This document shows positions 11,375 through 31,389 of a DNA stretch of 64,000 nucleotides, in pieces. The notes below the pieces were generated by a model, which saw only the letters and a list, made by a program, of their open reading frames with translations, was not told the DNA's origin and ran no database searches. The stretch covers positions 1 to 64,000 of the forward strand of contig DYJD01000021.1 of the NCBI GenBank assembly GCA_020723325.1, in the 5' to 3' direction. The first letter of the stretch is position 1, and every line of letters starts with the position of its first letter. A program made the position numbers and the translations under genes. This DNA comes from Desulfosudis oleivorans. GTDB lineage: Bacteria; Desulfobacterota; Desulfobacteria; Desulfobacterales; SURF-7.

Positions 11375-11456
11375 TGCCCGATTCAATTATTATTCGCCAA
11401 AAGGCCGGAAAGGACGCGGTAACTTCCATGGCATCCGTCTCGTCAGGGAGCCGTAA
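11375..11456 (+). pseudogene. 3' fragment of a sulfatase-modifying-fold (DGR-target-like) gene
   Basis: The frame ending at TAA 11454-11456 reads RFNYYSPKGRKGRGNFHGI then RLVREP, a C-type-lectin/FGE-fold terminus. Its last 14 residues match the intact gene at 23467-24303 except for one Ile/Phe change, and the 3' flank is also conserved. Upstream of about 11370 the homology ends and nothing resembles the rest of the gene. The nominal open frame continues back into livH and is not meaningful. Best explained as the leftover end of a second target gene. Confidence 0.6.
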
Positions 11457-11518
11457 CTCTTTATTGCCTGAATGTGAACCCGGCCTTTTATCAGGGCCGG
11501 GCTTTCATTTTGACAAGG
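11416..11518 (+). repeat. Direct repeat A: VR tail plus 3' flank
   Basis: Matches 24263-24364 (copy B) almost base for base over the coding end and the flank: GGTAACTTCCATGGC, CCGTCTCGTCAGGGAGCC, TAACTCTTTATTGCCTGAAT, then a hairpin and CATTTTGACAAGGC. Changes cluster in the hairpin loop and in the last part. After 11518 the copies diverge but rejoin in CCCTTCAGCCGG. A shorter, more diverged relative is copy C at 22313-22424. Confidence 0.8.
11479..11511 (+). terminator. Hairpin behind the VR fragment
   Basis: CCCGGCC (11479-11485) and GGCCGGG (11495-11501) form a seven-pair stem, followed by CTTTCATTTT. It may act as an intrinsic terminator. Hairpins directly downstream of a variable repeat are also a common cis element for DGR retrohoming. 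The copy behind the intact gene (about 24326-24350) has a weaker stem. Confidence 0.5.
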
Positions 11519-11577
11519 CACCCAGAACGGTTTACAGGTAAATCCCTTCAGCCGGATCATGACCGGCTATCCTACCT

Positions 11578-14892: not shown

Positions 14893-14902
14893 GGAGGCTG
14901 AC

Positions 14903-16027: not shown

Positions 16028-16033
16028 TGAGAT

Positions 16034-16118
16034 TGGATTATCGGCAAACGAATTTGCCGATAATGAAACTGGGATTCATTATCGCCTAAAATTTTGGCCG
16101 ATATTTCGTTATCGGCTA
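16034..16118. promoter_or_regulatory. Clustered TTATCGGC palindromes between fic and hsdR
   Basis: ATTATCGGCAAA (16034-16045) and TTTGCCGATAAT (16050-16061) are perfect complements around CGAA. A second imperfect set follows: TTATCGCCTAAAATTTTGG, then CCGATA, then GTTATCGGCTAAA. The half-site TTATCGGC/GCCGATAA occurs about four times in 85 bases, and the last copy ends about 20 bases before the hsdR start. Repeated half-sites suggest an operator controlling hsdR, possibly read by the winged-helix tail of the Fic protein (inference). The first palindrome could also fold as a weak hairpin, but it has no T-run. Confidence 0.6.
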
Positions 16119-16137
16119 AACTATTGAAGGACTTTTC

Positions 16138-19071
16138 ATGCCCAAGCCCGGTGAACACAAGACAGTCCAAGCGCGCATTATAAACTATGCCCAGGAAATC
16201 GGCTGGACCTTCATCCCCCGGTCCAAGGCGGAAGCAAGGCGGGGGTTTGATCCCGACGCTGTCACACCGGCCGAGCGGGCGGCCCGCGCTTCACTGTATT
16301 TCAATGACCTGCTCCATGCCCAAGTACGCGCCTTCAACCCCAAATACACCGATGCGACGGGAGCCCTGATCGGACGGCTGCGCCACCTGCAGGCCAATAT
16401 TTTCGGCAACCGGGAATTTCTGGGCTATTTGCGCAATACCGGCAAATATTTCTGCAAGGCTGAAAACCGGGAACTGGACCTGCGGCTCATCGATTACGAG
16501 CAAGATCCCCTGAAGGCCAATGTGTTCGAGGTCACCGAGGAATTCTATATCCACAACGGCAAATACGGCAATCGCGAGGATGTGGTCTTTCTGATCAACG
16601 GCATTCCGGTGCTGGTGATCGAATGCAAGAATGCCGGCAAGGACGAAGCCATTGCCGTGGGCATCGATCAGATCCGGCGCTATCATACGGAAACACCCGA
16701 GTTGTTTGTGCCGGAAATGATCTATACCGCCACCGAAGCCATCGGTTTTTCCTACGGTGTCACCTGGAACACCATCCGCCGCAATATTTTCAACTGGAAA
16801 AGCGAACAGGTGGGCCAATTGGAGCATAAGGTCAAGAGTTTCTGCGACCGGCAACATATTCTGAACCTGTTGCGGCATTTCATCGTTTTTGCCGAAAAGG
16901 ATGAGGAACTGAACAAGTATATTCTGCATCAGCACCAGACCGGCGCGGTAACGGCGGTGGTGGCGCGCTGCCTTGACACCCGGCGCAGCCGGGGTCTGAT
17001 CTGGCACACCCAGGGCAGTGGCAAGACCTTTACCATGATCAAGGCTGCCGAGATGCTGTTCAAGGCGCCCGAGGGCGACAAACCCACAATTCTGCTGATG
17101 ATCGACCGCAACGAACTGGAAGACCAGATGCTGAAAAATCTGGCGGCCCTGGGGCTAAACAACGTGGAGCATGCCGACCGGATCAACACGCTGGTCAAGC
17201 TGCTGAAAAACGACTACCGGGGCATCATCGTGACCATGATTCACAAATTCCGGGACATGCCAGCCAACGTGAATCAGCGCGGCAACATTTATGTGTTGAT
17301 CGACGAAGCCCACCGCACCACCGGCGGCGACCTGGGAAATTTCCTTATGGCTGGTTTGCCCAATGCCAGTTTTATCGGCTTTTCCGGCACGCCCATCGAC
17401 AAGACCGCTTACGGCAAAGGCACTTTCAAAACCTTTGGAACCGAAGACCAGGAAGGCTATCTGCACAAATATTCCATTGCCGAAAGTATTGCCGATGGCA
17501 CCACCTTGCCGCTTTTTTACAATGTGGCTCCCAATGAGATGCTGGCCAATGCGGACCTGATGGAAAAAGAGTTCTGGTCCCTGGCCGAAACCGAGGGGAT
17601 TGCGGATATTGAGGAACTGAACAAGATCCTGGATCGGGCCGTGAACCTGAAAAATTTTCTCAAGGCCGATGACCGGGTGGACAAGGTGGCCCACTATGTG
17701 GCCGAGCATTATCAATTGAATGTCGAGCCCTTGGGATACAAGGCCTTTCTGGTGGCCGTGGACCGCCCGGCCTGCGCCAAATACAAGGAGGCTTTGGATA
17801 AGTTGCTGCCGGCCGATTATTCGGCGGTGGTCTACACCCCCAACAACAATGACTCGGCGGCATTAAAAAAATATCACATTGATGAAAAGACTGAAAAACA
17901 GATCCGGAAGAGTTTTGGAAAAATCGGTGCATTTCCAAAAATCCTGATTGTCACGGAAAAGTTGCTCACCGGTTTTGACGCCCCCATCCTGTATGCCATG
18001 TATTTGGACAAGCCCATGCGCGACCACACCCTGCTGCAGGCCATTGCCCGGGTCAACCGGCCTTATGAGAATGAGGCCGAGGAAATGGTCAAACCCCATG
18101 GGTTTGTGCTGGATTTTGTGGGCATCTTCGACAAGCTGGAAAAAGCCCTGGCATTCGACAGCCAGGAAGTCAATGCCATCATCAAGGATATCCGACTGCT
18201 CAAAGTTCTGTTTGAAACCAAGATGACCCAAAAGGCGCCGGATTACCTGACGCTGATCCAACACAATTTCAACGATAAGGATGTGGACCAGCTCATCGAA
18301 CATTTCCGGGACAAGGAGCGCCGCAAGGCCTTTTTCAAGGAATATAAAGAAATCGAAATGCTGTACGAAATTATTTCGCCGGATGCCTTCCTGCGGCCAT
18401 TCATGGATGATTATGCCACCCTGGCGTCGATTTATAATGTGGTCCGCAAGGCCTATGCCAAAGCAGTCTATGTGGACCGCGCTTTTCAAAAAAAGACCAA
18501 CGACCTGGTCCAATCAAGAGTGGGAACCAATTACATCCAGCCGGTGACGACTTTCATTGAAATCAACGAGAAAACCATACAATTCATCTCCCAAAAAGAC
18601 GGTGGCAAAGGCACCAAGGTGATCAACCTGGTCAAAAGCATTGAGAAAAGCGCCGAGGAACAGAGCGACGATCCTTTTCTCATTGCCATGGCAGAGCGCG
18701 CCCGAGCGGTCCAGGAACGTTTTGAGGAAAGACAGACCAGCACCCAGGAGGCTTTGGAGGAATTATTCAATGAACTCCGGCAGGATGAATTGCGCAAAAA
18801 GGAACAGGCCCGCAAAGGATTTGACGGCTTGACGTTTTTCGTCTACCGGACACTGCTGGATGCCAAGATGCCCAATGCCGAGGCGGTCAGCTCCAAAATC
18901 AAGGCCGCTTTTGTCGAACATACCAACTGGAAATCCAGCGATGCGGCTTTGCGTGAGCTGCGTCAGGCGGTTACCTTCGCGGTTTATTCCGAGCTGGATG
19001 ACCTGGAAAAAGTGACGGCTATTGTTGAAAACCTGTTTTCACTGATTCACAAGGCTTATTCCATAAAATGA
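16138..19071 (+). CDS. hsdR: Type I restriction-modification system, restriction (R) subunit
   Basis: ATP-dependent translocase and endonuclease subunit. N-terminal PD-(D/E)xK nuclease with GIPVLVIECKNAG near residue 160; SF2 helicase Walker A HTQGSGKTFTM near residue 290; DEAH box VLIDEAHRTTGG; motif III SFIGFSGTP; motif VI LLQAIARVNRPY. A C-terminal helical region binds the methyltransferase. 977 residues, typical. The start has AAGGA upstream and is preceded by the palindrome cluster, so hsdR may be expressed separately from the methylase, which would help avoid self-damage. It overlaps the next gene by ATGA. Confidence 0.95.
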   Translation: MPKPGEHKTVQARIINYAQEIGWTFIPRSKAEARRGFDPDAVTPAERAARASLYFNDLLHAQVRAFNPKYTDATGALIGRLRHLQANIFGNREFLGYLRNTGKYFCKAENRELDLRLIDYEQDPLKANVFEVTEEFYIHNGKYGNREDVVFLINGIPVLVIECKNAGKDEAIAVGIDQIRRYHTETPELFVPEMIYTATEAIGFSYGVTWNTIRRNIFNWKSEQVGQLEHKVKSFCDRQHILNLLRHFIVFAEKDEELNKYILHQHQTGAVTAVVARCLDTRRSRGLIWHTQGSGKTFTMIKAAEMLFKAPEGDKPTILLMIDRNELEDQMLKNLAALGLNNVEHADRINTLVKLLKNDYRGIIVTMIHKFRDMPANVNQRGNIYVLIDEAHRTTGGDLGNFLMAGLPNASFIGFSGTPIDKTAYGKGTFKTFGTEDQEGYLHKYSIAESIADGTTLPLFYNVAPNEMLANADLMEKEFWSLAETEGIADIEELNKILDRAVNLKNFLKADDRVDKVAHYVAEHYQLNVEPLGYKAFLVAVDRPACAKYKEALDKLLPADYSAVVYTPNNNDSAALKKYHIDEKTEKQIRKSFGKIGAFPKILIVTEKLLTGFDAPILYAMYLDKPMRDHTLLQAIARVNRPYENEAEEMVKPHGFVLDFVGIFDKLEKALAFDSQEVNAIIKDIRLLKVLFETKMTQKAPDYLTLIQHNFNDKDVDQLIEHFRDKERRKAFFKEYKEIEMLYEIISPDAFLRPFMDDYATLASIYNVVRKAYAKAVYVDRAFQKKTNDLVQSRVGTNYIQPVTTFIEINEKTIQFISQKDGGKGTKVINLVKSIEKSAEEQSDDPFLIAMAERARAVQERFEERQTSTQEALEELFNELRQDELRKKEQARKGFDGLTFFVYRTLLDAKMPNAEAVSSKIKAAFVEHTNWKSSDAALRELRQAVTFAVYSELDDLEKVTAIVENLFSLIHKAYSIK

Positions 19072-19385
19072 GCCCGGAAAAGCACAAAACCTTGCTGTTT
19101 AAAGATCGCGTTTGCGCCTGGGCGCATAAATTAAACGTCGAGGCCACGTCCATCATTGTGCGCCCCATGCGCACCAAATGGGCCTCCTGCTCCACCGCAG
19201 GCCGTTTGACCTTTGATGCTTCAGTCCCGGATTTGCCTAATGATCTCCAGGATTATGTGATCGTGCACGAACTGCTGCATTTTCAAGTGCCCAATCATGG
19301 ACCGTTATGGAAAAGCTTGATGCGGGCGCATATTGGGGATTTTGAGGAACTTGATAAACGACTTAAGGGTAAAATAGCTTCATGA
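19068..19385 (+). CDS. YgjP-like (DUF45) metallopeptidase-fold protein
   Basis: A 105-residue protein of the YgjP/SprT-like zincin group: IIVRPMRTKWASCSTAGRLTF, then VIVHELLHFQVPNHGPLWKSLM, matching the HExxH...NHxxxFW-type signature with HELLH as metal site. Shorter than free-standing YgjP (about 230 residues), with only the C-terminal catalytic part. Start overlaps the hsdR stop (ATGA), so translation is coupled. Homologues are often attached to type I restriction operons; a role in processing or turnover of HsdR is a guess. Confidence 0.85.
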   Translation: MSPEKHKTLLFKDRVCAWAHKLNVEATSIIVRPMRTKWASCSTAGRLTFDASVPDLPNDLQDYVIVHELLHFQVPNHGPLWKSLMRAHIGDFEELDKRLKGKIAS

Positions 19386-19470
19386 GATTTAATTTATACA
19401 AATTCCTTTCCGCATGGCTATAAATGAAAAATTAGCCCTCCCATTTGGCCTGAACTGATTCAAATATTGT

Positions 19471-20190
19471 TTATATGTTGGATTTTTCTAAATCTCTTAT
19501 TTCTTCTCTGAAGCCGTATAACAGAGAATCTTTTTCGAAATACCCCGTAATCAGCCAATAAATCCATTCGTCTATTATACCCATAGCGTCGCTACTTAAA
19601 CAGAAATCAGTCAGTTCTATTGAATCGTGATGTTTACCGATAGGTTGGATGTGGTCAAATCTAAGAATTGATTCGGAGTTGGTGGTGCTAATTGGTAAAA
19701 TGTCCCAACCCAATTGGGGATATTCACATCTTCTGATTCTTTCTACAAATATGGGATTAAAGCCCGCGCGTTTTCCATCCTCATCACCGCCATAACATGG
19801 GATAACCAAAATAGTTGGTGCGGTCTGCCATTTAGGCTTACCCATTGTTAAAGACTTTGGTATGTCAGCGCCGCCTTCGCTTATAATGATCGCCGGTCTT
19901 TTTTTTGCTCTGTAAACGGCCCTAACCTCATTTCCATATACTGGACAAGCAGCAACCGGCAATGACTGCTTTTTCACATGGCCTTTTATTCGCATTGGTT
20001 CAAGAGTGTAGTTGGCTTGAGTATGTTCCGTTGGGGTGGTTCTACCTATCAAAGTCAAGGTCGATGGAACCTGATCGACGTGGGGGAGAAAAGCTTTTAT
20101 TAATCGGCCTCTGCAGAAATCAGATCCAGAAATAGATTCCCACCAAGGAGTTGGAGCAAGAAACCCTTGGATTGAGTCGTCACAATACAT
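19471..20190 (-). CDS. Candidate toxin-like partner of a Panacea gene, possible PemK/MazF-like fold
   Basis: A 239-residue protein with no certain family. The middle has features of PemK/MazF-type RNase barrels: GNEVRAVYRAKKRPAIIISE resembles the GDVVLVD..KRRPALVIS start, followed by TAPTILVIPCYGG and later WDILPIS and RFDHIQPI, where MazF proteins have their V.PIT and VDQIRTL strands. Outer parts are unassigned. The ATG at 20190 (TTG 20199 also in frame) lies within the end of the upstream Panacea gene, so the two are co-translated. Gene order antitoxin then toxin is common in toxin-antitoxin pairs. Toxin activity is a hypothesis; a structural prediction would settle the fold. Confidence 0.5.
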   Translation of the reverse strand: MYCDDSIQGFLAPTPWWESISGSDFCRGRLIKAFLPHVDQVPSTLTLIGRTTPTEHTQANYTLEPMRIKGHVKKQSLPVAACPVYGNEVRAVYRAKKRPAIIISEGGADIPKSLTMGKPKWQTAPTILVIPCYGGDEDGKRAGFNPIFVERIRRCEYPQLGWDILPISTTNSESILRFDHIQPIGKHHDSIELTDFCLSSDAMGIIDEWIYWLITGYFEKDSLLYGFREEIRDLEKSNI

Positions 20191-20977
20191 CGGGATCAAA
20201 TCTCACTTTTGATTTCCAGATATCGTCAGAAAAACGAATTACACCTCGCCCGCTTTCTGTTTTTGCTCCTGGAATCGCTTCTAATTCAGCTAAACCTTCG
20301 AAATATACCTCATCATAACGGGGCGGGGTTGGTTTTATTTTATTTCTTCTTTTTGATTCTAATAGAGCTTTAAATTTTTCCTTTTTGGCCGATATTAACT
20401 CTTTTCGTTTTTTCTGCTGCCTTACAGATAGTTTTTCTTGAGGCTGACATTCACCGTTCCGGTTTTGGTAGTCGGTTTTGTCAAGGAAATGCGGGATTGT
20501 AAAATCAAGAGTATCTTCAGGCTTGGCATTCAGCATTGGCCAAGTTTTGTATACAAAATCTAAAAGTCCTGCGGTATCTGATCCAAACCGATGTATGTAT
20601 TTATGCAACGGTCCGGAAATAGACAGGCTGATTTGCCGTTCTAGTTTTTCGAAAAGCGCTTCGTCATTAATTGTCCATCTCGTAAAATCGTCCTCATATT
20701 TTGTTGAGTGAAGAATCTTCTTTTCCGCACCAATTGCCTCCAACGCCGGTTCAATTCTTTCAAAACATTCAAGCGCCCATGGACCATAATGATGAAATTT
20801 CCACTTTAAGCCGGTGTAAATTTGGCCATTATTCAATTTTGCGTGAAACAAATCGGCGATATAGACATATTTGATGAGATGGATAGGGCCAAGATCCCTG
20901 TTTGTATATTCTTCCTCCCTGCCTGCGACCAGAAGGATGTATTGGAGTAACAAGTCTATTTTATTTATATTTTCCAT
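20180..20977 (-). CDS. Panacea-domain (SocA/DUF4065-like) protein, candidate antitoxin
   Basis: 265 residues. The N-terminal 130 resemble the Panacea domain: LLLQYILLVAG, then HLIKYVYIADLFHAKLNNGQ, and WKFHHYGPWALECFERIEPA (the K.KYGP-type motif). Panacea domains serve as antitoxins for many unrelated toxins in PanAT pairs. A basic linker around residues 180-215 (KKRKELISAKKEKFKALLE) is followed by a tail of short strands. The next gene overlaps its end. AT-richer than the restriction operon, so probably acquired separately. Confidence 0.6.
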   Translation of the reverse strand: MENINKIDLLLQYILLVAGREEEYTNRDLGPIHLIKYVYIADLFHAKLNNGQIYTGLKWKFHHYGPWALECFERIEPALEAIGAEKKILHSTKYEDDFTRWTINDEALFEKLERQISLSISGPLHKYIHRFGSDTAGLLDFVYKTWPMLNAKPEDTLDFTIPHFLDKTDYQNRNGECQPQEKLSVRQQKKRKELISAKKEKFKALLESKRRNKIKPTPPRYDEVYFEGLAELEAIPGAKTESGRGVIRFSDDIWKSKVRFDPDVL

Positions 20978-21261
20978 CCCGTTCGGTCCCTTTTTTGCCG
21001 TTTAATTATAACAGATTTTTCGAAAAAATGGAAAGTATGATTGTTCTTGATTAAAGTCAAGAATTCAGGTGATTCAACATTTTGCATATCCGACTTTTTA
21101 TATGGAAGATTTATTGAATTGTCATCATTTAAATTTGCTGACAACATAATCGGCATTTCATTATATGCTAAAAGTATTATTAATAATTTGTTACTGGCAA
21201 AAGTTGGTAAGGCCATGCTTCATAGGTGGTTTTGAAAGAATGAGAAACGATAGCCCAAATC

Positions 21262-21882
21262 CTACTTAAACTTTTTTTTGTCACAATTCAAAAAAATGAT
21301 ATTCGATAACTGCTTCAGACTCGACTCACTTGCATCTTTGGTAACTTCAACGCGCCTCACAAGTGGGAACCACGTTGCCGGGATGGGATTCGTTGCATAT
21401 GGATTCTGGAATAGGGCATGTTCTCCTGTGAGTTCGCAATCGAAAACAAATATTCCAGAGATTAATGTGTGATGAAAGGGCGTCATAGACGCATTACCTC
21501 TGGGAAGATGATGGAAATCCTCTCTGCCGTCCGCAAAAAATTCAGCACCAACGTCCCCAAGCATGGCGCGCGCGACTGAAAAACCAGTGAACAGGTTACC
21601 AGAGAAGTTGACACTCACAAGCAGGACAGGTGTCCTGGGACGTGACGGCCCAAATTTCTTGCGCAAGTCGCTCAGATCATCGCGTAGGTGAGCATAGGCG
21701 TCGATGCCTTGAGATTCTTTTTCGCCGGTACGAATCTCCTTCACATCGCAAAAAATAGACGGACTTCCTTCGATGAGAAAGTCTACATTCCGAGCATCTC
21801 GAACCAAAACATGGCGCCGGTACTTCAGTTGAAGAGTGTCGAGATATGAGGCAAACAGGCCTTCAGAAATTTTAGCATCCAT
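21262..21882 (-). CDS. Hypothetical protein, possibly restriction-endonuclease fold
   Basis: 206 residues, start ATG 21882 with GGGGGTG upstream. The N-terminal part DARNVDFLIEGSPSIFCDVKEI has the spacing of a PD-(D/E)xK nuclease core (Asp, about a dozen residues, then D-x-K), and a helix rich in charged residues follows (LRDDLSDLRKKFG). The C-terminal half has no recognised motif. Nuclease function is a weak inference from the short core and from the defence-gene surroundings. The stretch 20978-21261 upstream of panA has only short overlapping frames in both directions and I call nothing there. Confidence 0.5.
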   Translation of the reverse strand: MDAKISEGLFASYLDTLQLKYRRHVLVRDARNVDFLIEGSPSIFCDVKEIRTGEKESQGIDAYAHLRDDLSDLRKKFGPSRPRTPVLLVSVNFSGNLFTGFSVARAMLGDVGAEFFADGREDFHHLPRGNASMTPFHHTLISGIFVFDCELTGEHALFQNPYATNPIPATWFPLVRRVEVTKDASESSLKQLSNIIFLNCDKKKFK

Positions 21883-22089
21883 TGACTAATCGCACCCCCT
21901 TATGCCCCAACTGTTGTGTTGACTGCGTATACTCTTCGCCGATAGTCGACAATTCGTAAGCGTCGCTCTACCGGTGTCCTTTCGCGGTAACAATTTACCG
22001 TAGCTGATTAACCAACCGAATGTGGCATTGTTCAGTTCAGTGGGTTGGGATTCTATTCGATTATATTCGGCAATTGATGCTTTCAGATT

Positions 22090-22203
22090 GAAGTGATGAG
22101 TGAAAGACAGTTTGCCACTATCCACCCACGTGTAACGCCTCGAAAATGATGCACATTGCTCTATACAATCTACACTTTACCAGTCTGCCGGTTGCGCTGT
22201 CAA
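22090..22203. repeat. IS-end-like repeat, copy 2
   Basis: 22143-22203 aligns with 2453-2513: AAAATG-TGCACAT, then CACTTTACCAGTC and GCGCTGTCAA. Upstream, CAGTTTGCCACTATCC weakly follows the CTTGCCAAAGTGC of copy 1. Same orientation as copy 1, 19.7 kb apart. It separates the nuclease-like gene from a run of non-coding fragments. Confidence 0.4.
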
Positions 22204-22312
22204 CTCCCCCAATCGGCCATATCAGTCTTTATGGTAAATCGTTACATGGTAACGGCGTGAATCCATCGGTTGATGATCAGGACCCGGTCACCAGCGATGT
22301 GACCTGGTTTCT

Positions 22313-22424
22313 TTTGACAATGCATTCCAACGGCGATATATGGGGATATCCTTTTCAGCCGGACCATGACCGCGGCTATCCATTGTTGACCCGGTCAGCC
22401 AGCCACTGGCCGGGTTTTTTAGTT
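22313..22424 (+). repeat. Copy C of the DGR-target 3' flank, without coding end
   Basis: CTTTTGACAATGCATTCCA, CGGCGATATATGGGGATATC and TTCAGCCGGACCATGACCG match the flank of copy B (24357-24403), and the final part, with a CCCGG/CCGGG stem and T-run, matches the end of copy A (about 11551-11610). It therefore holds the complete downstream half of the unit, while A and B each hold part of it. Just after it, 22451-22490 has a GTAGCAACT word repeated three times. 22726-22795 is a GC-rich, hairpin-prone patch (GAGGGC...GCCCTC). Otherwise 22204-22863 shows no gene. Confidence 0.6.
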
Positions 22425-22863
22425 TGCTGTCAGCGGGATATCGAAGGAACCGTAGCAACTGTAGCAACTGTAGCTGTAGCAACTCACAGAAAATGAAAAA
22501 ATGAAGGCGGGGATCTAAGCAATCCTTAAAAGGGCTTTTTGTGGTTTTTGCAGTTACTGGATAGGGCATTTTCAAAAAAATGAGACTTCAGCCAGCATCA
22601 CGGAAGCGCTTCCCCTGGCCGATATAAAAATGCTTTCACTGTAAAAATTGGGGGTCTTTTTGGGGGTATATTATTTATTATTTAATATTATTGATTTAAA
22701 TTTCATTTAGTTATGATTCAGTTAAATGGACGCCGCCGCAGGGGAAGACTGCCACGGCGTAGCCCCAGAGGGCGAAGCCGGGCCCTCCGTTCCAGCTTTA
22801 CAACGTATCATTCGATGATTTAAAAACCTTTTTAAAACATTATAATTCTAATTAAAAACGAAA

Positions 22864-23118
22864 ATGGACGACCATCTCTTCCATTACGTCTACATCCTCA
22901 CCAGCCAAGCCGATCCTACCCGCCATTACACCGGCCTCACCACAAACCTTGAAAACCGCCTCCTTTCCCATAATGCCGGTCAGGTTCCCCATACCGCCAA
23001 ATACAACCCCTGACGTATCGAAACCGCCATAGCCTTTCGAAACCGCAAAAAGGCCTCAGAATTTGAAAAATACCTGAAAAGCCATTCCAGGCGTGCATTT
23101 GCTTCCAAGCATTTCTAA
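22864..23118 (+). pseudogene. GIY-YIG nuclease-domain protein with in-frame TGA
   Basis: Single-domain GIY-YIG protein of the UPF0213/YhbQ-like type: FHYVYILTSQ, HYTGLTTNLENRLLSHNAGQ, then TAKYNP, stop, RIETAIAFRNRKKASEFEKY and a SKHF end. The only defect is TGA at 23011-23013 where relatives have Trp (TGG), a single G-to-A change. All 85 codons are otherwise in frame, so the damage is recent. No selenocysteine element was recognised and Trp-site recoding is not expected. Confidence 0.8.
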
Positions 23119-23120
23119 GA

Positions 23121-23235
23121 ATCATGAAACAGCAAAAGCCCTTGGAGTATCTCGGGCAACGGTTGAAAGAGTTCGCGGGGTGATAAAACGAGGGGGGAGG
23201 AAGCTGTTGAAAGAATTCTGGCTATGGTATTCCTG
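23121..23235 (+). pseudogene. Possible ParB-type helix-turn-helix fragment
   Basis: In one frame: ETAKALGVSRATVERVRGVI then KRGGRKLLKEF. The first part looks like the helix-turn-helix of ParB-related partition or adaptor proteins (AKALGVS.ATVERA..VI..G). It has no start of its own, begins inside the end of the GIY-YIG remnant, and the sequence after it is unrelated. Treated as a short degraded fragment; chance resemblance is possible. Confidence 0.25.
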
Positions 23236-23466
23236 CCCGGCTGCGGTGGCGATCCTGAAAATCAGGCCCATTCCCTTGCCTGGGTGGCGATCGCTTCTCC
23301 TGGGGCATCCTGGCAAGTCGGATTTTCTTAAAAAGGGCCGGCGGACATCATTTTATAAATAAGCAGGGTTTTTGTTGCAATCTTTGATTGCCTGTGAAAT
23401 TACGGAAAAAAAACAAAAAAATGATTTTTTGTGTGTATCTTTTTAACATTTTTTAATGGGGGGGTT

Positions 23467-24303
23467 GTGAAAAAAGTTTTGCATGCCTCTTGGAGTGCCT
23501 TGACACGGATAGTATTGCTTTTAATTATTGCTGGTAATGTAGGCTGCGACAGTAGCAGCAATGCCCCTGCCTCTGGAGTGAATAGGCCTGTGGTTACTAA
23601 CTCTCTCGGTATGAATTTTGTGTATATCCAACCCGGAACGTTTTGGATGGGCAGTCCGGACACAGAGGTGTATCGAAATTGGGATGAAATTCTTCATCAA
23701 GTTACCTTGACCGATCCGTTTTACATGCAGACCACCGAGGTGACTCAGGGGCAATGGGCAAGTGTGATGGGCAGCAATCCTTCTGGTTTTCCCAATTGTG
23801 GCAACAGTTGCCCGGTGGAGCAAGTTTCCTGGGATGATGTACAGTTGTTTATCAATGCCTTGAACCAACGGGGAGAAGGGACCTATCGTTTACCCACCGA
23901 GGCGGAGTGGGAGTATTGCGCCCGAGCCGGCACGACCACGCCGTTTAATACCGGCGTTTGTTTATCCACGGATCAGGCCAATTATGATGGAGGTTATCCT
24001 TACAGTGATTGCTCAATAGGGATATATAGGGGGAAACCGATAGCGGTGGGGAGTTTTACCGCTAATGCTTGGGGACTGTATGATATGCACGGCAATGTGC
24101 AGGAATGGTGTTCTGATTGGTATGGAGACTATCCGACGACGACAGTGACCAATCCAACTGGCGCTACAAGCGGTTCCACCCGGGTGATACGCGACGCCGG
24201 CTGGAGCGGCGGCGCCGAATTCTGCCGCTCCGCTTCGCGGAACCATTTCGCGCCCTGGGGTAGCGGTAACTTCCATGGCTTCCGTCTCGTCAGGGAGCCG
24301 TAA
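23467..24303 (+). CDS. FGE/sulfatase-modifying-fold lipoprotein, probable DGR variable protein
   Basis: 278 residues from the GTG at 23467. An N-terminal signal (MKKVLHASWSALTRIVLLLI) leads to AGNVGC, a rough lipobox, so the protein is probably anchored on the cell surface. The rest is the formylglycine-generating-enzyme-like C-type lectin fold: GTFWMGSPDTE, TEVTQGQWASVMGSNPSGFP, YRLPTEAEWEYCARAG, NAWGLYDMHGNVQEWCSDW, and a GFRLVREP end. It lacks obvious FGE active-site cysteines in the C-terminal part. The last 40 codons look like a diversified variable repeat (next feature). No reverse transcriptase or template repeat is in the window, so any DGR acts in trans. Likely role: ligand display or recognition; ligand unknown. 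Confidence 0.85.
   Translation: MKKVLHASWSALTRIVLLLIIAGNVGCDSSSNAPASGVNRPVVTNSLGMNFVYIQPGTFWMGSPDTEVYRNWDEILHQVTLTDPFYMQTTEVTQGQWASVMGSNPSGFPNCGNSCPVEQVSWDDVQLFINALNQRGEGTYRLPTEAEWEYCARAGTTTPFNTGVCLSTDQANYDGGYPYSDCSIGIYRGKPIAVGSFTANAWGLYDMHGNVQEWCSDWYGDYPTTTVTNPTGATSGSTRVIRDAGWSGGAEFCRSASRNHFAPWGSGNFHGFRLVREP
24181..24300 (+). other. Candidate DGR variable repeat (VR)
   Basis: Encodes VIRDAGWSGGAEFCRSASRN, HFAPWGSGNFHG and FRLVREP. Where related proteins vary (residues around WSGG, EF, NHF and GSGNFH), every codon ends in C or T: agc ggc ggc, ttc, aac cat ttc, ggt agc ggt aac ttc cat. This is what adenine mutagenesis of AAC/AAT template codons produces, while framework codons (tgg, cgg, gcg, gag) are free of this pattern. 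The coding end, stop and downstream hairpin are conserved in copy A, as expected for a homing-initiation region. Without the template repeat this stays an inference. Confidence 0.55.
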
Positions 24304-24364
24304 CTCTTTATTGCCTGAATGTGAACCCAGCCTTTTATTAAGGCCGGATTTTTCATTTTGACAA
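24263..24364 (+). repeat. Direct repeat B: VR tail plus 3' flank
   Basis: Partner of copy A (11416-11518), 12.8 kb away in the same orientation. It includes the last 13 codons of the lipoprotein gene, the stop, and a hairpin (about 24326-24350, imperfect). Between 24365 and 24645 there is a continuation shared with copy C up to about 24403, then nothing I would call; a short minus-strand frame at 24418-24624 has no recognisable features. Confidence 0.8.
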
Positions 24365-24645
24365 GGCGTTCCAGCGGCGATATATGAGGATATCCCTTCA
24401 GCCGGTATCCATCCCGTCTATATTTGCGCTTCCTCGATCTTTTCGGGCCGTCCCTTAATCATCCGAACACCGATTATCGGCCCAAGCCGGCCTTTTGCCC
24501 CATGCAACCGGGCAAGTTCGAATAAATTGGGCTGAAATCGACAAAGATCGTTTGACTTAGCACGAACAGCCTTTGTATAAGGGCTTGCCGTGGACATTAT
24601 CGCATTGATCTTTTTCCGCGGCATGGATAACCCCGGGATGACGAT

Positions 24646-26091
24646 ATGGCACTGGAATACGCCACATTAGAGCTGCTGCGCCAGAACCACCCTGCCTGGC
24701 GGTTGCTGTGCGCCCACCACGCGCCGCTGGTGGCCGGTTTTCTGCACCGGGTGTTCATTAAGCCCAATGTGCGGAATCTGTCCCAGGCCGACTTGGTCGA
24801 GGCGTTGGAAGATGAGCTCTTCGCCTTGCGCCAACAAATGGGGGACGAGGCCTTTCCTGGTACCGCCCAAAACTATCTCAACGACTGGGCCGAAAACGAC
24901 AAGGGCTGGCTGCGGAAATTCTACCCGGCCGGGACGGACGAACCTCACTTTGACCTGACTCCGGCGACGGAAAAGGCGCTGGCCTGGCTGGAGGGCTTGA
25001 CCGAGCGCACCTTTGTCGGGACCGAGTCGCGCCTTCTCACCCTGATTGAGCTGCTGCGGCAGATGAGCCAGGGGAGCCAGACCGATCCGCAGGTGCGGAT
25101 CCACGAACTGCAGAAACGCCGCAACGATATCGACACGGAGATCTCCCGTATTCTGGCTGGTGACATTCCGCTGCTGGACGACACGGCCCTGAAGGACCGT
25201 TTCCAGCAATTCCTGCAACTGGCGCGGGAATTGCTGGCCGATTTTCGCGAGGTGGAGCACAACTTCCGCACCCTCGACCGGCGGGTGCGCGAACGCATCG
25301 CCCTGTGGGAAGGGTCCAAGGGGGCCCTGCTCGAGGAGATCATGGGCGCGCGGGACGTCATCGCCGATTCGGACCAGGGGAAAAGCTTCCGGGCCTTCTG
25401 GGATTTTCTCATGTCCCAGTCCCGGCAGGAAGACTTGAGCCGCTTGCTGGAGCAGGTACTGTCGTTGCCGCCGATCCTATCCCTGCACCCCGAAGCCCGT
25501 TTGCAGCGCGTGCATTATGATTGGCTGGAAGCCGGCGAACATACCCAGCGAACAGTGGCCAAGCTCTCCGAGCAACTGCGCCGGTTTCTCGACGATAAGG
25601 CATGGCTGGAGAACCGCCGGATCATGGACATCCTGCACAGCATCGAAACCCACGCGCTGGCGTTGCGTGAAGAGTTCCCGCCAGGGGATTTCATGCCGCT
25701 GGCCGAGACCTCCGCGTCTGTGGAGCTTCCCCTGGAGCGGCCGCTTTACCGCCCACCACTCAAACCGCTCATTGCCGGAACCATATTGGCGGAAGGGGAT
25801 GCGGATGTGGATACGGCGGCGCTCTACGCCCATGTGGTGGTGGACCGGGCCGAGCTGACCCGGAATATCCGCCAGGAGTTGCAGGGTCGCAGCCAGATCA
25901 GCCTCGCCCAGGTGGTTGCCCGCCATCCCCTGCGTCACGGGTTGGCCGAGCTGATTGCCTATCTGCAACTGGCCGGAGAGTGGCCCAAGACCGCCGTGGA
26001 TGACGACGTGCAGGAAAAGGTGTGCTGGCAGTCCGACACGGGTGCCACGCGACAGGCGACCTTGCCGCGCATTATATTGCTGAGGAACTGA
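24646..26091 (+). CDS. jetA: Wadjet type I system protein JetA (DUF3375)
   Basis: DUF3375 protein, the kleisin-like subunit of the Wadjet condensin that recognises and removes small circular DNA. The N-terminus is highly typical: LEYATLELLRQNHPAWRLLC, then HHAPLVAGFLHRVFI, LVEALEDELFALRQQMG and a WLRKFYPAGTDEPHFDLTP segment. Charged helical regions in the middle suit a kleisin linker. 481 residues, normal. It is followed by jetB, jetC and jetD with overlapping ends, so all four form one operon. GC content is high compared with the kinase gene behind them. Confidence 0.92.
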   Translation: MALEYATLELLRQNHPAWRLLCAHHAPLVAGFLHRVFIKPNVRNLSQADLVEALEDELFALRQQMGDEAFPGTAQNYLNDWAENDKGWLRKFYPAGTDEPHFDLTPATEKALAWLEGLTERTFVGTESRLLTLIELLRQMSQGSQTDPQVRIHELQKRRNDIDTEISRILAGDIPLLDDTALKDRFQQFLQLARELLADFREVEHNFRTLDRRVRERIALWEGSKGALLEEIMGARDVIADSDQGKSFRAFWDFLMSQSRQEDLSRLLEQVLSLPPILSLHPEARLQRVHYDWLEAGEHTQRTVAKLSEQLRRFLDDKAWLENRRIMDILHSIETHALALREEFPPGDFMPLAETSASVELPLERPLYRPPLKPLIAGTILAEGDADVDTAALYAHVVVDRAELTRNIRQELQGRSQISLAQVVARHPLRHGLAELIAYLQLAGEWPKTAVDDDVQEKVCWQSDTGATRQATLPRIILLRN

Positions 26092-26729
26092 TGATGAATG
26101 TTACCGATACCGCGCCCAACCATTCGGTCAATCCGCCCCAAGATCTCTCGGCCGTGGTGGTTCCGCTGCTCAAGAGCGTGATTTACCAGGAGGAGAATCC
26201 GGGCTTGTGGGGCGCGCTGCTGAATCTGCAGGCAAGTGTCCGGGATTACGTGGCCGTGCTCGGCCTGGAGTTGCTGCTCGATGAGGCGGAAGGCTACGCT
26301 TTCTTGCGTTCCCGGCAGGATGGCGATGGGGACGGCGCAACAGCCATCCCGCGCCTGGTTGCCCGGCGGCAGCTCTCCTATCCGGTCAGTCTGCTGCTTG
26401 CGCTGTTGCGGAAAAAGCTGGCCGAGTTTGACGCAGGCGGCGGTGACACGCGCCTGATTCTCTCCCGTGATGAGGTGGTGGAGTTGATCCGAATTTTTCT
26501 CCCGGCGGGCAGCAACGAGGTGAAGCTCATCGATCAGGTCGATGCCACCTTGAACAAAATCACCGAGCTGGGTTTTATCCGCCGCTTGCGGGGGCAAGGC
26601 CAGATGATCGAAGTACGGCGGATTATCAAGGCCTTTGTCGATGCCCAATGGCTGGCCGACTTTGATGACCGCCTGGCGGAATATCGACGGCAACTTGCCG
26701 GGGCTGTGGAAGGGGACGAGCATGGCTGA
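26091..26729 (+). CDS. jetB: Wadjet type I system protein JetB (DUF4194)
   Basis: DUF4194 protein, the KITE-like winged-helix subunit that binds the JetA kleisin. Features: VVVPLLKSVIYQEENPGLWG near the start, LEADEAEGYAFLR-like stretch (LLLDEAEGYAFLRSR), RRQLSYPVSLLLALLRKKL and a C-terminal FIRRLRGQGQMIEVRRIIKA. About 212 residues. The ATG at 26091 overlaps the jetA stop (TGATG); the upstream in-frame ATG at 26022 lies inside jetA and is not used. Its end overlaps jetC by eight bases. Confidence 0.9.
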   Translation: MMNVTDTAPNHSVNPPQDLSAVVVPLLKSVIYQEENPGLWGALLNLQASVRDYVAVLGLELLLDEAEGYAFLRSRQDGDGDGATAIPRLVARRQLSYPVSLLLALLRKKLAEFDAGGGDTRLILSRDEVVELIRIFLPAGSNEVKLIDQVDATLNKITELGFIRRLRGQGQMIEVRRIIKAFVDAQWLADFDDRLAEYRRQLAGAVEGDEHG

Positions 26730-29700
26730 GCAGATGTTTCTGGAATTTCTCGGCGATGATCGGCTGGCCGGATTCCGCCTGCAGCGGCTTGAGGTCTTCA
26801 ACTGGGGGACCTTTGATGGCCGGATCTGGACCCTGCGGGTGGGTGGAAAAAACGGCCTGCTCACCGGTGATATCGGCTCTGGAAAATCCACCCTGGTGGA
26901 CGCCGTCACCACCTTGCTGGTGCCGAGTCAGCGGGTTGCCTACAACAAAGCGGCGGGCGCCGACAGCCGGGAGAGATCGCTGCGTTCCTATGTGCTCGGC
27001 TATTTCAAATCAGAGCGGCAGGAAACCCTTGGCAGCGCCAAGCCGGTCCCTTTGCGCGACTTCAACAGTTATTCGGTGATCCTCGGCGTTTTCTACAACG
27101 CCGGATACAGCAAAACCGTCACCCTGGCCCAGGTCTTCTGGATGAAGGAGGCCAACGCGCAGCCGGCCCGCCTGTATGCGGCCGCCGAACGCGATCTTTC
27201 CATAGCCGGGAATTTTTCCGGATTCGGCAGCGAAATGACCGGGCTTCGCAAGCAGTTGCGTTCAAGCGGGGTCGAGCTGTTTGACAGCTTTCCGCCCTAC
27301 GGTTCATGGTTCCGTCGCCGCTTCGGCATCGACAACGAGCAGGCCCTGGATCTGTTCCATCAGACCGTGTCCCTCAAGTCGGTGGGGAACCTGACCGATT
27401 TCGTGCGCAGCCACATGCTTGAGCCCTTTGATGTCGCGCCGCGCATCTCCGCCTTGATTAGGCACTTCGAGGATCTCAACCGGGCTCACGAGGCGGTTCT
27501 CAAGGCCAAACGGCAGGTCGAAATGCTGGCGCCGCTGGTGGCCGATTGTGAACGCCACCAGGAACTATCGCAAACAGCGGAAAATCTGCGCGCCTGCCGC
27601 GATGCTCTGCGCCCCTTTTTCGCCACTCTGAAGCTGGGTCTGCTCGAGAAACGCCTCACCGCGCTGAATGAGGAATTGACCCGACACCAAGCGGCCATCG
27701 AGGGGCTGGAGGAGCAGCGGCGTGCCCAGCAGGTGCAGGAGCGCGAGCTGCGCCGCACCATCGCGGAAAACGGCGGGGACCGGATCGAAATTATCGCTGC
27801 GGAAATCCGGCAGAAACAAGATGAACTCGAACGTCGCAAACAAAAAGCCACCCGCTATGAGGAGCTGGTACGTTCCCTGGGGCAAGCCCCGGCCGCGACC
27901 CAGGAAGCATTTCTGCGGCAACGGTCCGAAACCGCAACCTGGCGTGAAACGACTGAAGAAGCTGAAGCGCAGGCTCAGAATGACCGCACCCAGGCCGAGG
28001 TGGAATTTGCCCAAGGACGTCAGGAATACGATCAGTTGCAAACTGAAATAACCAGCTTGAAAGCCCGGGTCAGCAATATCGACGAAAAACAGATCGCCAT
28101 GCGGCATTCGCTCTGCCGGGCGCTGAATTTGGCCGAAGCAGAGGTGCCCTTTGCCGGTGAGTTGCTCCAGGTTCGCGCGGACCAGCGTGACTGGGAAGGA
28201 GCCATGGAACGGCTGCTCCGCGGTTTCGGTCTGTCTCTTCTGGTTCCGGATCATTATTACACCAAGGTGGCTGAATGGGTTGACCGTACGTATCTGCGCG
28301 GGCGTCTGGTCTATTTCCGGGTGCGTGAAGGCGGCCGCGGCGAGCTGCCGCCGCTCCATCCCCATTCCCTTGTGCGCAAGCTGCAAGTCAAACCCGGCTC
28401 GCCCTTTTACGACTGGATCGAACGGGAGGTGGCCCTGCGCTTTGATCTGGCCTGCTGCCTGTCCCAGGAACAGTTTCGCCGCGAGACCCGGGCCATCACC
28501 CAGGCAGGGCAAATCAAGGCGAAAGGGGAACGCCATGAAAAGGATGACCGGCACCCGCTTGATGATCGTCGTCGCTATGTCCTGGGCTGGAGCAACGCCG
28601 AAAAAATCGCGGCCTTGGAAAAGGAAGCCAAACTGCAGGAAACCCACCTTGGCGAACTCGCCGGTCGCATCAGTAGGCTGCTGAAGGAACAGTCCGCCCT
28701 CAAAGAGCGTCTTTCGCTCCTCTCGAAGCTGGGGGAATACAGCGACTTCCGTGAGCTCGACTGGAAGCCCGTGGCAATGGCTATCGCCAGGCTGGAAGCC
28801 GAGAAACGTGAGCTTGAGGCTGCTTCTGATCTGCTCAAAACCCTTACCGCCCAATTGACCGCCCTCGAAGACCACTTGCGGGAAACGGAGCGCCAGCTTG
28901 ACCAACGAAAGGATAGCCGCTCAAAAACCGAACAAAAAATCTCTGCCGCACAAGAGTTGCAGCAGCGGGCGCAAGAATTGTTGGCTGAGACCAACGCGGC
29001 TACTGCCCGGCGCTTTACCATGCTGGAAGGCATGCGCGCGGAGGCGCTGGGCAGCCAGTTGCTGACGGTTGAATCCTGCGACAATCGTGAGCGTGATATG
29101 CGCGATTGGCTGCAGACCAGGATCGACGCCGAAGATTCAAAGATTAAACGTTTGTCCGAAAAGATCATCAAGGCCATGACCGAATACAAGCAGGAATGGG
29201 CCCTGGAAACCCGGGATGTGGATGTCAATATCGCGGCCGGACCTGAATTCAAATTGATGCTTGATCAACTCCGGGCCGACGATCTGCCGCGTTTTGAAGG
29301 GCGTTTCAAGGAACTCCTGAATGAGAATACCATCCGGGAGGTGGCCAATTTTCAATCCCAGCTAGCCCGCGAACGGGAAACCATCAAAGAACGCATTGCC
29401 CAGATCAACCAATCCCTCACCCAGATTGACTACAACCCAGGCCGTTACATCCGTCTCGAAGCCCAGATGAATCTCGACGCCGACATCCGTGACTTCCAGA
29501 CCGAGCTGCGCGCCTGTACCGAAGGGGCGCTCACCGGCTCGGAGGACGCGCAATATTCGGAAGCAAAATTTCTGCAGGTGAAGCGCATCATTGAACGGTT
29601 TCGCGGTCGGGAGGAGCACACTGATCTGGATCGGCGCTGGACGTCCAAGGTGACCGATGTGCGCAACTGGTTCGTTTTTGCCGCCAGCGAGCGCTGGCGT

Positions 29701-30087
29701 GAAGACAACAGCGAACATGAACATTATGCGGATTCCGGCGGAAAATCGGGCGGCCAAAAGGAAAAGCTGGCCTACACCGTGCTCGCCGCCAGCCTGGCAT
29801 ACCAGTTTGGCTTGGAATGGGGCGCGGTGCGCTCGCGCTCTTTCCGCTTCGTGGTGATCGACGAGGCTTTTGGGCGCGGTTCGGATGAGTCGGCCCAGTA
29901 TGGTTTACAGCTTTTCGCCCAACTCAATCTGCAACTGCTGATCGTCACGCCGCTGCAGAAAATCCATATCATCGAGCCTTTTGTAGCCAGTGTCGGCTTT
30001 GTTCACAATGAAGACGGCCGCAACTCCGTCCTGCGCAACCTGACCATTGAGGAATACCAGGCCGAGAAGCAAAGGATGCAAGGGTGA
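26722..30087 (+). CDS. jetC: Wadjet type I system SMC/MukB-like ATPase JetC
   Basis: SMC-family motor of the Wadjet complex, about 1121 residues. Walker A GLLTGDIGSGKSTLVDAVTT near residue 50; two long coiled-coil arms rich in E, R, Q and L (about 270-450 and 660-890); a hinge-like segment in between (LLVPDHYYTKVAEWVDRTYL); ABC signature SGGKSGGQKEKLAYTVLAAS; and Walker B FVVIDEAFGRGSDESAQYGL. ATP-driven loop extrusion along plasmid DNA is the established role of the family. I take ATG 26722 (GGAAGGGG upstream); in-frame ATGs further up lie within jetB. Confidence 0.94.
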   Translation: MAEQMFLEFLGDDRLAGFRLQRLEVFNWGTFDGRIWTLRVGGKNGLLTGDIGSGKSTLVDAVTTLLVPSQRVAYNKAAGADSRERSLRSYVLGYFKSERQETLGSAKPVPLRDFNSYSVILGVFYNAGYSKTVTLAQVFWMKEANAQPARLYAAAERDLSIAGNFSGFGSEMTGLRKQLRSSGVELFDSFPPYGSWFRRRFGIDNEQALDLFHQTVSLKSVGNLTDFVRSHMLEPFDVAPRISALIRHFEDLNRAHEAVLKAKRQVEMLAPLVADCERHQELSQTAENLRACRDALRPFFATLKLGLLEKRLTALNEELTRHQAAIEGLEEQRRAQQVQERELRRTIAENGGDRIEIIAAEIRQKQDELERRKQKATRYEELVRSLGQAPAATQEAFLRQRSETATWRETTEEAEAQAQNDRTQAEVEFAQGRQEYDQLQTEITSLKARVSNIDEKQIAMRHSLCRALNLAEAEVPFAGELLQVRADQRDWEGAMERLLRGFGLSLLVPDHYYTKVAEWVDRTYLRGRLVYFRVREGGRGELPPLHPHSLVRKLQVKPGSPFYDWIEREVALRFDLACCLSQEQFRRETRAITQAGQIKAKGERHEKDDRHPLDDRRRYVLGWSNAEKIAALEKEAKLQETHLGELAGRISRLLKEQSALKERLSLLSKLGEYSDFRELDWKPVAMAIARLEAEKRELEAASDLLKTLTAQLTALEDHLRETERQLDQRKDSRSKTEQKISAAQELQQRAQELLAETNAATARRFTMLEGMRAEALGSQLLTVESCDNRERDMRDWLQTRIDAEDSKIKRLSEKIIKAMTEYKQEWALETRDVDVNIAAGPEFKLMLDQLRADDLPRFEGRFKELLNENTIREVANFQSQLARERETIKERIAQINQSLTQIDYNPGRYIRLEAQMNLDADIRDFQTELRACTEGALTGSEDAQYSEAKFLQVKRIIERFRGREEHTDLDRRWTSKVTDVRNWFVFAASERWREDNSEHEHYADSGGKSGGQKEKLAYTVLAASLAYQFGLEWGAVRSRSFRFVVIDEAFGRGSDESAQYGLQLFAQLNLQLLIVTPLQKIHIIEPFVASVGFVHNEDGRNSVLRNLTIEEYQAEKQRMQG

Positions 30088-31268
30088 AGTGGACGTCGCC
30101 GACTGAGCTTAAAGCCCAGGTGCAAAAGCTCTGGGATCGCGGCCTGCTGCTAGCCTCCTTATCCGGCGGGGAGTCGGTTTTCCCCAGGCGTCTGACGCTC
30201 AAAGGCCCTGATTCCCGGGCACTAAGCGAACGGTTTCCCGCGGTGCGCGACTGGATCGCCCAATTGTCGGCAGCCGCCGGGCCCTATCGGATCCAATGGC
30301 GCAGCGTCAACCACCGTGTCCTTGGGGCCAATCAAATCCCAGCGGAAATCTGGGTTGATACGCTGGCGGATGCGCTCGGACTGATCGGCAAACGCAAGGC
30401 GTCGGAGCAATTTGCAGCAATGGTTGAACTGACCAGAGAGCGGCAGCCTGAATTGATCCCTTGGCTGGCAAAGCGCCCGCTGCGGGCTTTGGAATTGGCC
30501 GATGACTGGCCGCGACTGCTGGCGATTGTCGCCTGGCTGCGCCGACATCCGCGTTCGGCGATTTATCTGCGCCAGATCGATCTGCCGGGCGTCCATACCA
30601 AGTTGATTGAAGGGCATCGCGGCGTGCTGGCGGAACTTTTCGATCTGGTCTTGCCGGCGGAAGCCATTGATGCAACCCACACAGGCATTGGTGGATTCTG
30701 CCGCCGCTATGGCTTTCTGGATAAACCTTTGCGGGTGCGCTTGCGGGTGTTGGACCCGCATATCAGGTTGCTGCCCATGGAATCCCACCAGGATATCACC
30801 CTGAGGCAGGACGCCTTCTCTTCGCTGCATTTGCCGGTATCCAAAGTGTTTATCACCGAAAACGAAATCAACTTCCTGGCTTTTCCGGCTGTTCCTGATG
30901 CGCTGGTGATTTTCGGGGCAGGATACGGTTTTGACAATCTCGCTGCCGCTTCCTGGTTGCAGCAGAAAAAAATCTACTATTGGGGAGATATCGATACCCA
31001 CGGCTTTGCCATTCTCAATCAGTTGCGCGGATTCTTTCCCCATGCCGTGTCTTTTCTCATGGATGGGCGGACACTCTTGCACCATCAATCCCTCTGGGGA
31101 GTTGAGGCCCAGCCTGAAACGGCAGACCTTTCGCGGTTGAACCCAGAGGAAAACGCTCTTTTCGATCAGTTGCGCCGGAACCATTGGGGTGACCGAGTTC
31201 GGCTTGAGCAGGAGAGAATCGGCTTTGACTTTCTGCTTGATTTCCTCAAGGGGCAGCAGCTTTTTTAA
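30084..31268 (+). CDS. jetD: Wadjet type I system nuclease JetD (DUF3322/DUF2220, Toprim fold)
   Basis: The endonuclease that cuts circular DNA once JetABC has extruded it. N-terminal DUF3322 part (KWTSPTELKAQVQKLWDRG) and C-terminal DUF2220 domain related to topoisomerase VI subunit A. The Toprim acidic residues are visible: VFITENEINFLAFP, then IYYWGDIDTHGFAILNQLRG. 394 residues, complete. GTG start overlaps the jetC stop (GTGA). All four jet genes look intact, so the system should be functional. Confidence 0.93.
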   Translation: MKWTSPTELKAQVQKLWDRGLLLASLSGGESVFPRRLTLKGPDSRALSERFPAVRDWIAQLSAAAGPYRIQWRSVNHRVLGANQIPAEIWVDTLADALGLIGKRKASEQFAAMVELTRERQPELIPWLAKRPLRALELADDWPRLLAIVAWLRRHPRSAIYLRQIDLPGVHTKLIEGHRGVLAELFDLVLPAEAIDATHTGIGGFCRRYGFLDKPLRVRLRVLDPHIRLLPMESHQDITLRQDAFSSLHLPVSKVFITENEINFLAFPAVPDALVIFGAGYGFDNLAAASWLQQKKIYYWGDIDTHGFAILNQLRGFFPHAVSFLMDGRTLLHHQSLWGVEAQPETADLSRLNPEENALFDQLRRNHWGDRVRLEQERIGFDFLLDFLKGQQLF

Positions 31269-31389
31269 TCCATATGATCTCAAGCCAACGGCTTGCATCC
31301 ATCCTTTGATTTTTATCCCATAATTTGCTATTTCAACTGTGTTCACTGTGTTCGATATATTATCTCGCCTACTGATTCGAGAATACAAT

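Follow-up and report, generated by a model that had tools for sequence, protein, structure and literature searches.

Targets of diversity-generating retroelements (DGRs) that stand alone have been described in Thiohalocapsa PB-PSB1. According to the accessible part of that report, DGR loci decay and targets can be remote; such targets are best explained by action in trans, and at some loci the reverse transcriptase (RT) is intact in some cells only (PMC10907252). As far as the accessible text goes, the variable repeat (VR) in the published trans cases matches the template repeat (TR) at all non-A sites (PMC10907252). Roux et al. state in the available portion of their paper that remote targets, which do not lie beside an RT, escape their own RT-based survey (PMC8144416). 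DiGReF, likewise as far as its text is available, reports additional ORFs whose perfect variable repeats show differences at A positions exclusively (PMC3521204).

The gene considered here is located in a window of 64,000 nt, i.e. bases 1-64000 of contig C104 of a Desulfosudis oleivorans assembly (7.22 Mb, 113 contigs, 99.5% complete, not closed). In the following, C-numbers designate contigs of this assembly unless another genome is named, L-numbers loci and G-numbers genomes (G000 is the same assembly). The ORF starts with GTG at 23467 and ends with a stop codon at 24301-24303 (Table 1). The encoded protein matches PF03781 over residues 51-276 with 146.1 bits (curated cut-off 23.3; E 2e-42), and its AlphaFold model is a confident FGE/C-type-lectin fold (pLDDT 88.9). 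In Foldseek, the model ranks TvpA (2y3c) first (E 1.7e-20), followed by PvdO and formylglycine-generating enzymes; the top phmmer matches are PvdO (4.4e-23) and TvpA (2.1e-22). Hence, the fold named in the preliminary description is borne out. The translation begins with a hydrophobic N-terminus followed by a Cys; the lipobox is non-canonical, and the protein is a putative lipoprotein. TvpA of Treponema denticola (entry title variable protein 1), a DGR variable protein, has the same fold and carries its variable segment at the C-terminus, as the window gene does. The window gene differs from TvpA-type DGR proteins in three respects: neither RT nor TR was found in its assembly, its framework is changed, and differences between its copies are not confined to A.

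Table 1. Coordinates of the features in the window
Feature	Position	Strand	Evidence
Gene for a 278-aa protein of the FGE-sulfatase/C-type-lectin fold; probably a former DGR target	23467..24303	+	ORF; PF03781 2e-42; AlphaFold pLDDT 88.9; Foldseek; phmmer
VR-like segment, 32 codons, R-V-I-R ... N-F-H	24181..24276	+	C76 divergence; GC3 change-point; non-A/A contrast
Framework codons GAC GCC (Asp-Ala) replacing near-invariant Gly-Gly	24193..24198	+	comparison of 117 VR-like segments
Conserved 3' block at the place of an IMH (GFRLVREP, stop codon, 25 nt downstream)	24277..24328	+	91% over 55 nt to C76; within 66 nt common to the relic at 98%
Hairpin followed by T-run, terminator-like	24330..24344	+	same stem folds in relic and C76
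Gene relic: broken copy of the window gene (3' portion) with downstream flank	11416..11570	+	local alignment to 24263-24421

The gene is flanked on one side by a type I restriction-modification block that includes a Fic protein (11963-19071) and on the other by JetABCD (Wadjet) genes (24646-31268), and the region from 11963 to 31268 is read as a defence island holding it. The restriction-modification block comprises a methylase, a specificity subunit, a SoFic-like protein and a restriction subunit. A kinase-domain protein is encoded at 31339-33498, after JetABCD.

Genomes of the same order contain DGRs with FGE-type targets (L091-L096, L098, L102, L109, L110), most of which display the motif R-V-x-R-G-G-x-W ... 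G-F-R; unlike the window gene, they have RT and TR within a few kb. Among 41 loci scanned, which were chosen mostly for RT or FGE matches in same-order genomes and supplemented by loci of the own assembly, 13 contain TR/VR pairs whose mismatches fall nearly always at template A; in ten of these loci, the VRs are of the FGE type and the RTs DGR-like. A fourteenth TR/VR-like pair on contig C79 of the own assembly (L112) was rejected, since it lies inside near-identical repeat units of one protein. This 1052-aa protein (L112:52-3210), whose many repeats we presume to be of the WD type, mimics a TR/VR pair in an A-tolerant scan and is a warning against false positives. The window gene resembles the PB-PSB1 case in that there, too, VR targets lack an own RT or TR in a genome with conflict-system genes; according to the accessible part of the report, each DGR class of PB-PSB1 has a complete locus and most VRs are diverse in situ, in contrast to the window assembly with no RVT_1 match (PMC10907252).

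The preliminary description had found neither RT nor template repeat in the window and had proposed to search the rest of the genome for both. RVT_1 (PF00078) yielded no match at E<=0.001 in the whole 7.2-Mb assembly, with matches in three of 14 control genomes. Similarly, a profile built from 13 DGR RTs of relatives gave no match in the assembly at E<=10, and its positive control, the known DGR of G036, was recovered at 7e-159. By blastn of the whole assembly at E<=10, no TR was detected for the VRs of the window gene, of a second copy on contig C76 or of an FGE gene on C21. An A-tolerant scan that gives the known TRs of L094 and L095 scores above 100 revealed no TR on C104, covered as five adjoining stretches exclusive of their joints, or in regions on seven other contigs with FGE genes; for the VRs of C93, C84 and C79 it comprised these regions only, and the FGE loci on C99 and C98 lie outside it. 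This means that the earlier statement on the window holds and that, in this 99.5% complete, unclosed assembly of 113 contigs, neither a DGR-class RT nor a TR matching a VR at non-A positions was found. The lack of a DGR RT is an outcome that the preliminary description had named as refuting it.

The search was extended to other genomes. Among 389 genomes of the order, 20 have a match to 24172-24345 at E<=0.01, and ten loci examined contained no TR for the window VR; one weak TR/VR-like pair, in L299, has 8 mismatches at A and 4 at non-A over 63 nt. No phage or viral source was found: blastn of 24150-24380 gave no match in phages, and the 3' block had no exact match in viral contigs. In the 11 further genomes searched from the same family, no clear DGR RT was seen, so that no donor emerged, a point against a DGR origin. 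The RTs of G003, G009 (C13) and G011 were dismissed as donors: with RVT_1 they reach 144, 126 and 111 bits but with the DGR profile only 54, 77 and 79 bits, and they are taken for other RT classes. The same applies to the second RT of G009 (C70; 67.5 bits with RVT_1, 47 bits with the DGR profile); for comparison, two DGR RTs of G036 score 529 and 368 bits on this profile. In G002, only RT fragments with stops are present. The genomes compared comprise one per species, with none of the same genus among the relatives listed. In a further scan, none of the 80 loci kept of 294 relatives found exceeded 50% identity. In a 4.2-Mb genome of the same order (G059:C1), at least 28 RVT_1 matches were counted (28 of 54 candidates scored), most of those listed with the same score and a 484-aa open frame, a pattern that would suit a multi-copy group II intron.

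The last ~40 codons of the window gene resemble a DGR VR, and both the predicted fold and the position of the divergent segment are those of a C-type-lectin-type protein with a C-terminal VR. The VR pattern was fitted by 117 of 178 distinct FGE ORFs; the FGE genes on C79, C94 and C98 of the own assembly do not fit it and so are outside the 117. In the preliminary description, C or T was claimed for the third base at every variable position. This is an overstatement: C/T is found at 11 of the 13 positions where the TRs of relatives mostly encode Asn, the exceptions being ATA (24187-24189) and TCG (24235-24237). Nor does the count discriminate. It amounts to 11-13 in the ten VRs with a TR in the locus and averages 10.6 in the other 107 of the 117 segments, and conserved paralogues, among them L076, L024 and L238, also score 11. 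Since non-DGR relatives score much alike, the third-position count was discarded as proof of a DGR.

At all 13 template-Asn positions, the window VR is free of K, E, Q, M and W. The C76 VR contains Gln, Glu, Trp and Lys at such positions, which are unobtainable from AAY codons mutated only at A, and the window codons ATA and TCG also misfit AAY; both observations count against a DGR origin. R-G-G is present in 109 of the 117 VR-like segments, and R-D-A occurs in the window gene only. Such a framework change would be expected to be erased by rewriting from a TR.

With nine TRs of relatives as proxies, the window VR and the best TR agree at 0.71 of the non-A positions but at 0.27 of the A positions. 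True DGR VRs compared with foreign TRs give a similar contrast, e.g. 0.73/0.20 for L093. The contrast is missing in several conserved paralogues, such as C104:59k (0.61/0.60) and L238 (0.50/0.54), and weak in the C76 VR (0.65/0.39). As paralogues of the own assembly that were taken as stable show part of it (C99, 0.61/0.38; C110, 0.59/0.41), the contrast constitutes graded evidence.

The second gene copy, on C76 (L030:9660-10217), lacks the N-terminal half. Between the two copies, 106 of 133 aa (80%) are identical before the VR, 10 of 31 inside (24181-24276) and 8 of 8 after it. At the DNA level, identity resumes in the last codons and extends 28 bases past the stop codon (91% over 55 nt, 24277-24331). 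Upstream of the VR, silent differences were counted in 26 of 106 identical-residue codons. The VRs themselves differ at 46 of 96 nt, distributed as 17, 16 and 13 over the three codon positions, and at 19 of these positions neither VR has an A. Three VR pairs of true DGRs, each written from a common TR, differ at 8, 13 and 16 of 96 nt, none of them in third position. Nine TRs of relatives contain 24-30 A per 96 nt with 0-1 at third positions, and a common template for the window and C76 VRs would require at least 46. One template of ordinary A content cannot produce these differences. VR copies within one genome that differ only at template A, as expected for DGR targets, were not seen in the one pair available, nor does this pair reach the DiGReF standard as set out in the accessible part of the paper (PMC3521204).

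A GC3 change-point search that was blind to the VR position placed the step in the window gene 2 codons before the VR start, with GC3 rising from 0.51 to 0.81 (9 of 1000 permutations). In the C76 copy, it is located 5 codons before the VR start (0 of 1000 permutations). As window gene and C76 copy are of common ancestry, their seams are not independent. A seam was defined by a fixed rule: at most 6 codons from the VR start, p<=0.05 and GC3 rising. Of 12 DGR targets, 7 have such a seam, as do 3 of 8 FGE genes of the own assembly (those of the window, C76 and C93) and 8 of 97 others. The 12 targets comprise ten with a TR in the locus, L072, and the second VR of L094, which was assigned without TR comparison; at every non-A position, the L072 VR agrees with the TR of L092, which lies on the same contig. 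The VR genes of two more DGRs, L091 and L109, are outside the 12. The eight own-assembly genes are those that fit the VR pattern, and the 97 are what remains of the 117 after subtraction of these 8 and the 12; some of these others are probably undetected DGR targets. The seam misses 5 of the 12 DGR targets as well as C21 and C84, and it is present in none of the three own-assembly genes C99, C104:59k and C110 and in none of seven paralogues labelled stable from listings (L224, L076, L237, L238, L239, L244, L246). Compositional distinctness of the VR from the gene body, which the window gene exhibits, is our own criterion outside the DGR definition and was tried on the 12 DGR targets only. The seam suggests, but does not prove, that the tail was copied in from a template whose composition differed; a comparable GC3 mark could also arise by gene conversion with another FGE gene as donor.

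Downstream of the VR, the preliminary description had noted that the stop codon is followed by a conserved flank with a hairpin. This was confirmed, as the block recurs in C76 and in the relic, the first 66 nt of which are 98% identical to the 3' end of the gene, and the stem folds in all three copies (MFE -17.2, -27.7 and -26.0 kcal/mol with z of -1.9, -3.7 and -4.6, respectively). The window hairpin with its T-run looks like an intrinsic terminator; in the region, two intrinsic-terminator-like sites were found and 1.7 expected in shuffles, which is no enrichment. At the place of an IMH, a conserved block and hairpin are present in three copies, but the hairpin is terminator-like and the window gene lacks the CCAGGTCA ending of several DGRs of relatives. 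In the relic, the final 14 bases of the VR, directly ahead of the conserved GGC codon, are still those of the gene, which would be expected had no rewriting of the VR followed the duplication. As a template repeat, the relic was rejected: It carries the gene's own VR letters and continues through stop codon and terminator. The 13-kb segment from relic to gene was likewise dismissed as an integrative element with the repeat as att site, since a fragment upstream of the intact gene would be in the wrong order for a 3'-end insertion.

In the most economical account of these data, the window gene is probably a former DGR target that was orphaned and now drifts by ordinary mutation and selection; a frozen relic is more likely than an active receptor. 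In an ancestor, an error-prone RT would have copied an A-rich template repeat, and retrohoming would have pasted the mutated copy over the last ~40 codons of the FGE-fold protein, setting its presumed ligand-binding face. RT and template would since have been lost from the lineage, or are at least absent from the assembly, and the VR would then have been frozen and changed by ordinary mutation and selection. The C76 copy and the broken 3' end at 11416-11570 would be remnants of the same target family. The earlier proposal of an orphan DGR-type target gains support from the seam at the VR edge, the VR-centred divergence from C76, the TR-like conservation at non-A positions and the FGE-target DGRs in the same order. 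Since neither a TR nor an RT of this lineage was seen, the DGR origin is argued from resemblance. In a second explanation, which we regard as unlikely, the gene was never a DGR target. It would belong to an ordinary duplicated FGE family, and its binding face would either change rapidly by selection or be exchanged among FGE paralogues by homologous recombination. In favour of this, the motif R-V-x-R-G-G ... G-F-R-L is widespread among FGE proteins that the C/T count does not separate, neither an RVT_1 match nor a TR was found in the assembly, the 13 third-position differences between the two VRs are of the kind that ordinary divergence gives, the silent differences upstream show that the copies are old, and a composition step is also expected from gene conversion by another FGE gene. 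Against this stand a conserved single-domain FGE group of the same family (L020, L224-L228, L230) with a nearly unchanged VR region, the absence of a GC3 seam from the two conserved FGE genes tested (L224, L076), the non-A/A contrast that the window VR shares with DGR VRs, and the trypsin-NACHT-FGE protein on C21, which ends in CCAGGTCAG like several DGR VRs of relatives.

The preliminary description had furthermore inferred that the gene is diversified in trans. An RT and a TR in an assembly gap, on a plasmid, in a phage or in other cells would then still rewrite the VR, which we consider less likely still. Trans targets and an intact RT restricted to some cells are described for PB-PSB1 in the accessible part of the report (PMC10907252), an assembly of 113 contigs may lack a cassette of a few kb, and none of the 13 template-Asn sites of the window VR has a residue of the set K, E, Q, M and W. 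Yet the assembly is 99.5% complete and matches neither RVT_1 nor the DGR-RT profile; published trans VRs match their TR at all non-A sites, as far as the accessible text reports (PMC10907252), and no TR was found here. The A content required of a common template exceeds that of the nine TRs of relatives, the R-D-A framework change is retained, and neither an exact match to the 3' block in viral contigs nor a blastn match of 24150-24380 in phages was found. With no RVT_1 or DGR-RT match, no TR for three VRs and a VR pair that misfits one template, diversification in trans is unsupported. For this one gene, the practical conclusion is modest: citing 23467-24303 as a receptor under active diversification would not be justified.

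On a larger scale, DGRs may have become extinct genome-wide, such that several sensor or surface targets (the window gene, C76, C93, perhaps C21) lost their RTs and kept the last-written variants as fixed binding proteins; this is a tentative and on balance rather doubtful extension. If true, the GC3 step would persist at VR edges as a fossil mark, and part of the orphan targets could be recognised from it where RT and TR are missing. Should composition steps be frequent at VR edges, a list of some orphan targets could be drawn up from the sequence alone, and the fate of hypervariable proteins after loss of the mutator becomes askable. We do not assert that the literature is silent on orphan VRs lacking an RT.

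Other FGE genes of the assembly show further features. On C21 (L116:6-6555), a TIR-domain protein is followed by the trypsin-NACHT-FGE protein in a conflict-system-like cluster; the C-terminal VR-like tail of the latter shares the end CCAGGTCAG with several VRs of relatives' DGRs. The FGE gene at G000:C93:26927-27616 (L026, L290) has a VR-like tail with a GC3 step 3 codons before the VR start. An end like that of C93, F-R-L-S-R-S-V-S, recurs in other genera (L069, L298), and no TR/VR pair was found in L298. On C79 (L112), a caspase (Peptidase_C14) is fused to an FGE domain at 6964-8847. On its low-coordinate side, the ORFs 3280-3684 and 6697-6882, which we take to be recombinase-like, both contain FISERGKQLATRSVRALVTTGLERAGIH.
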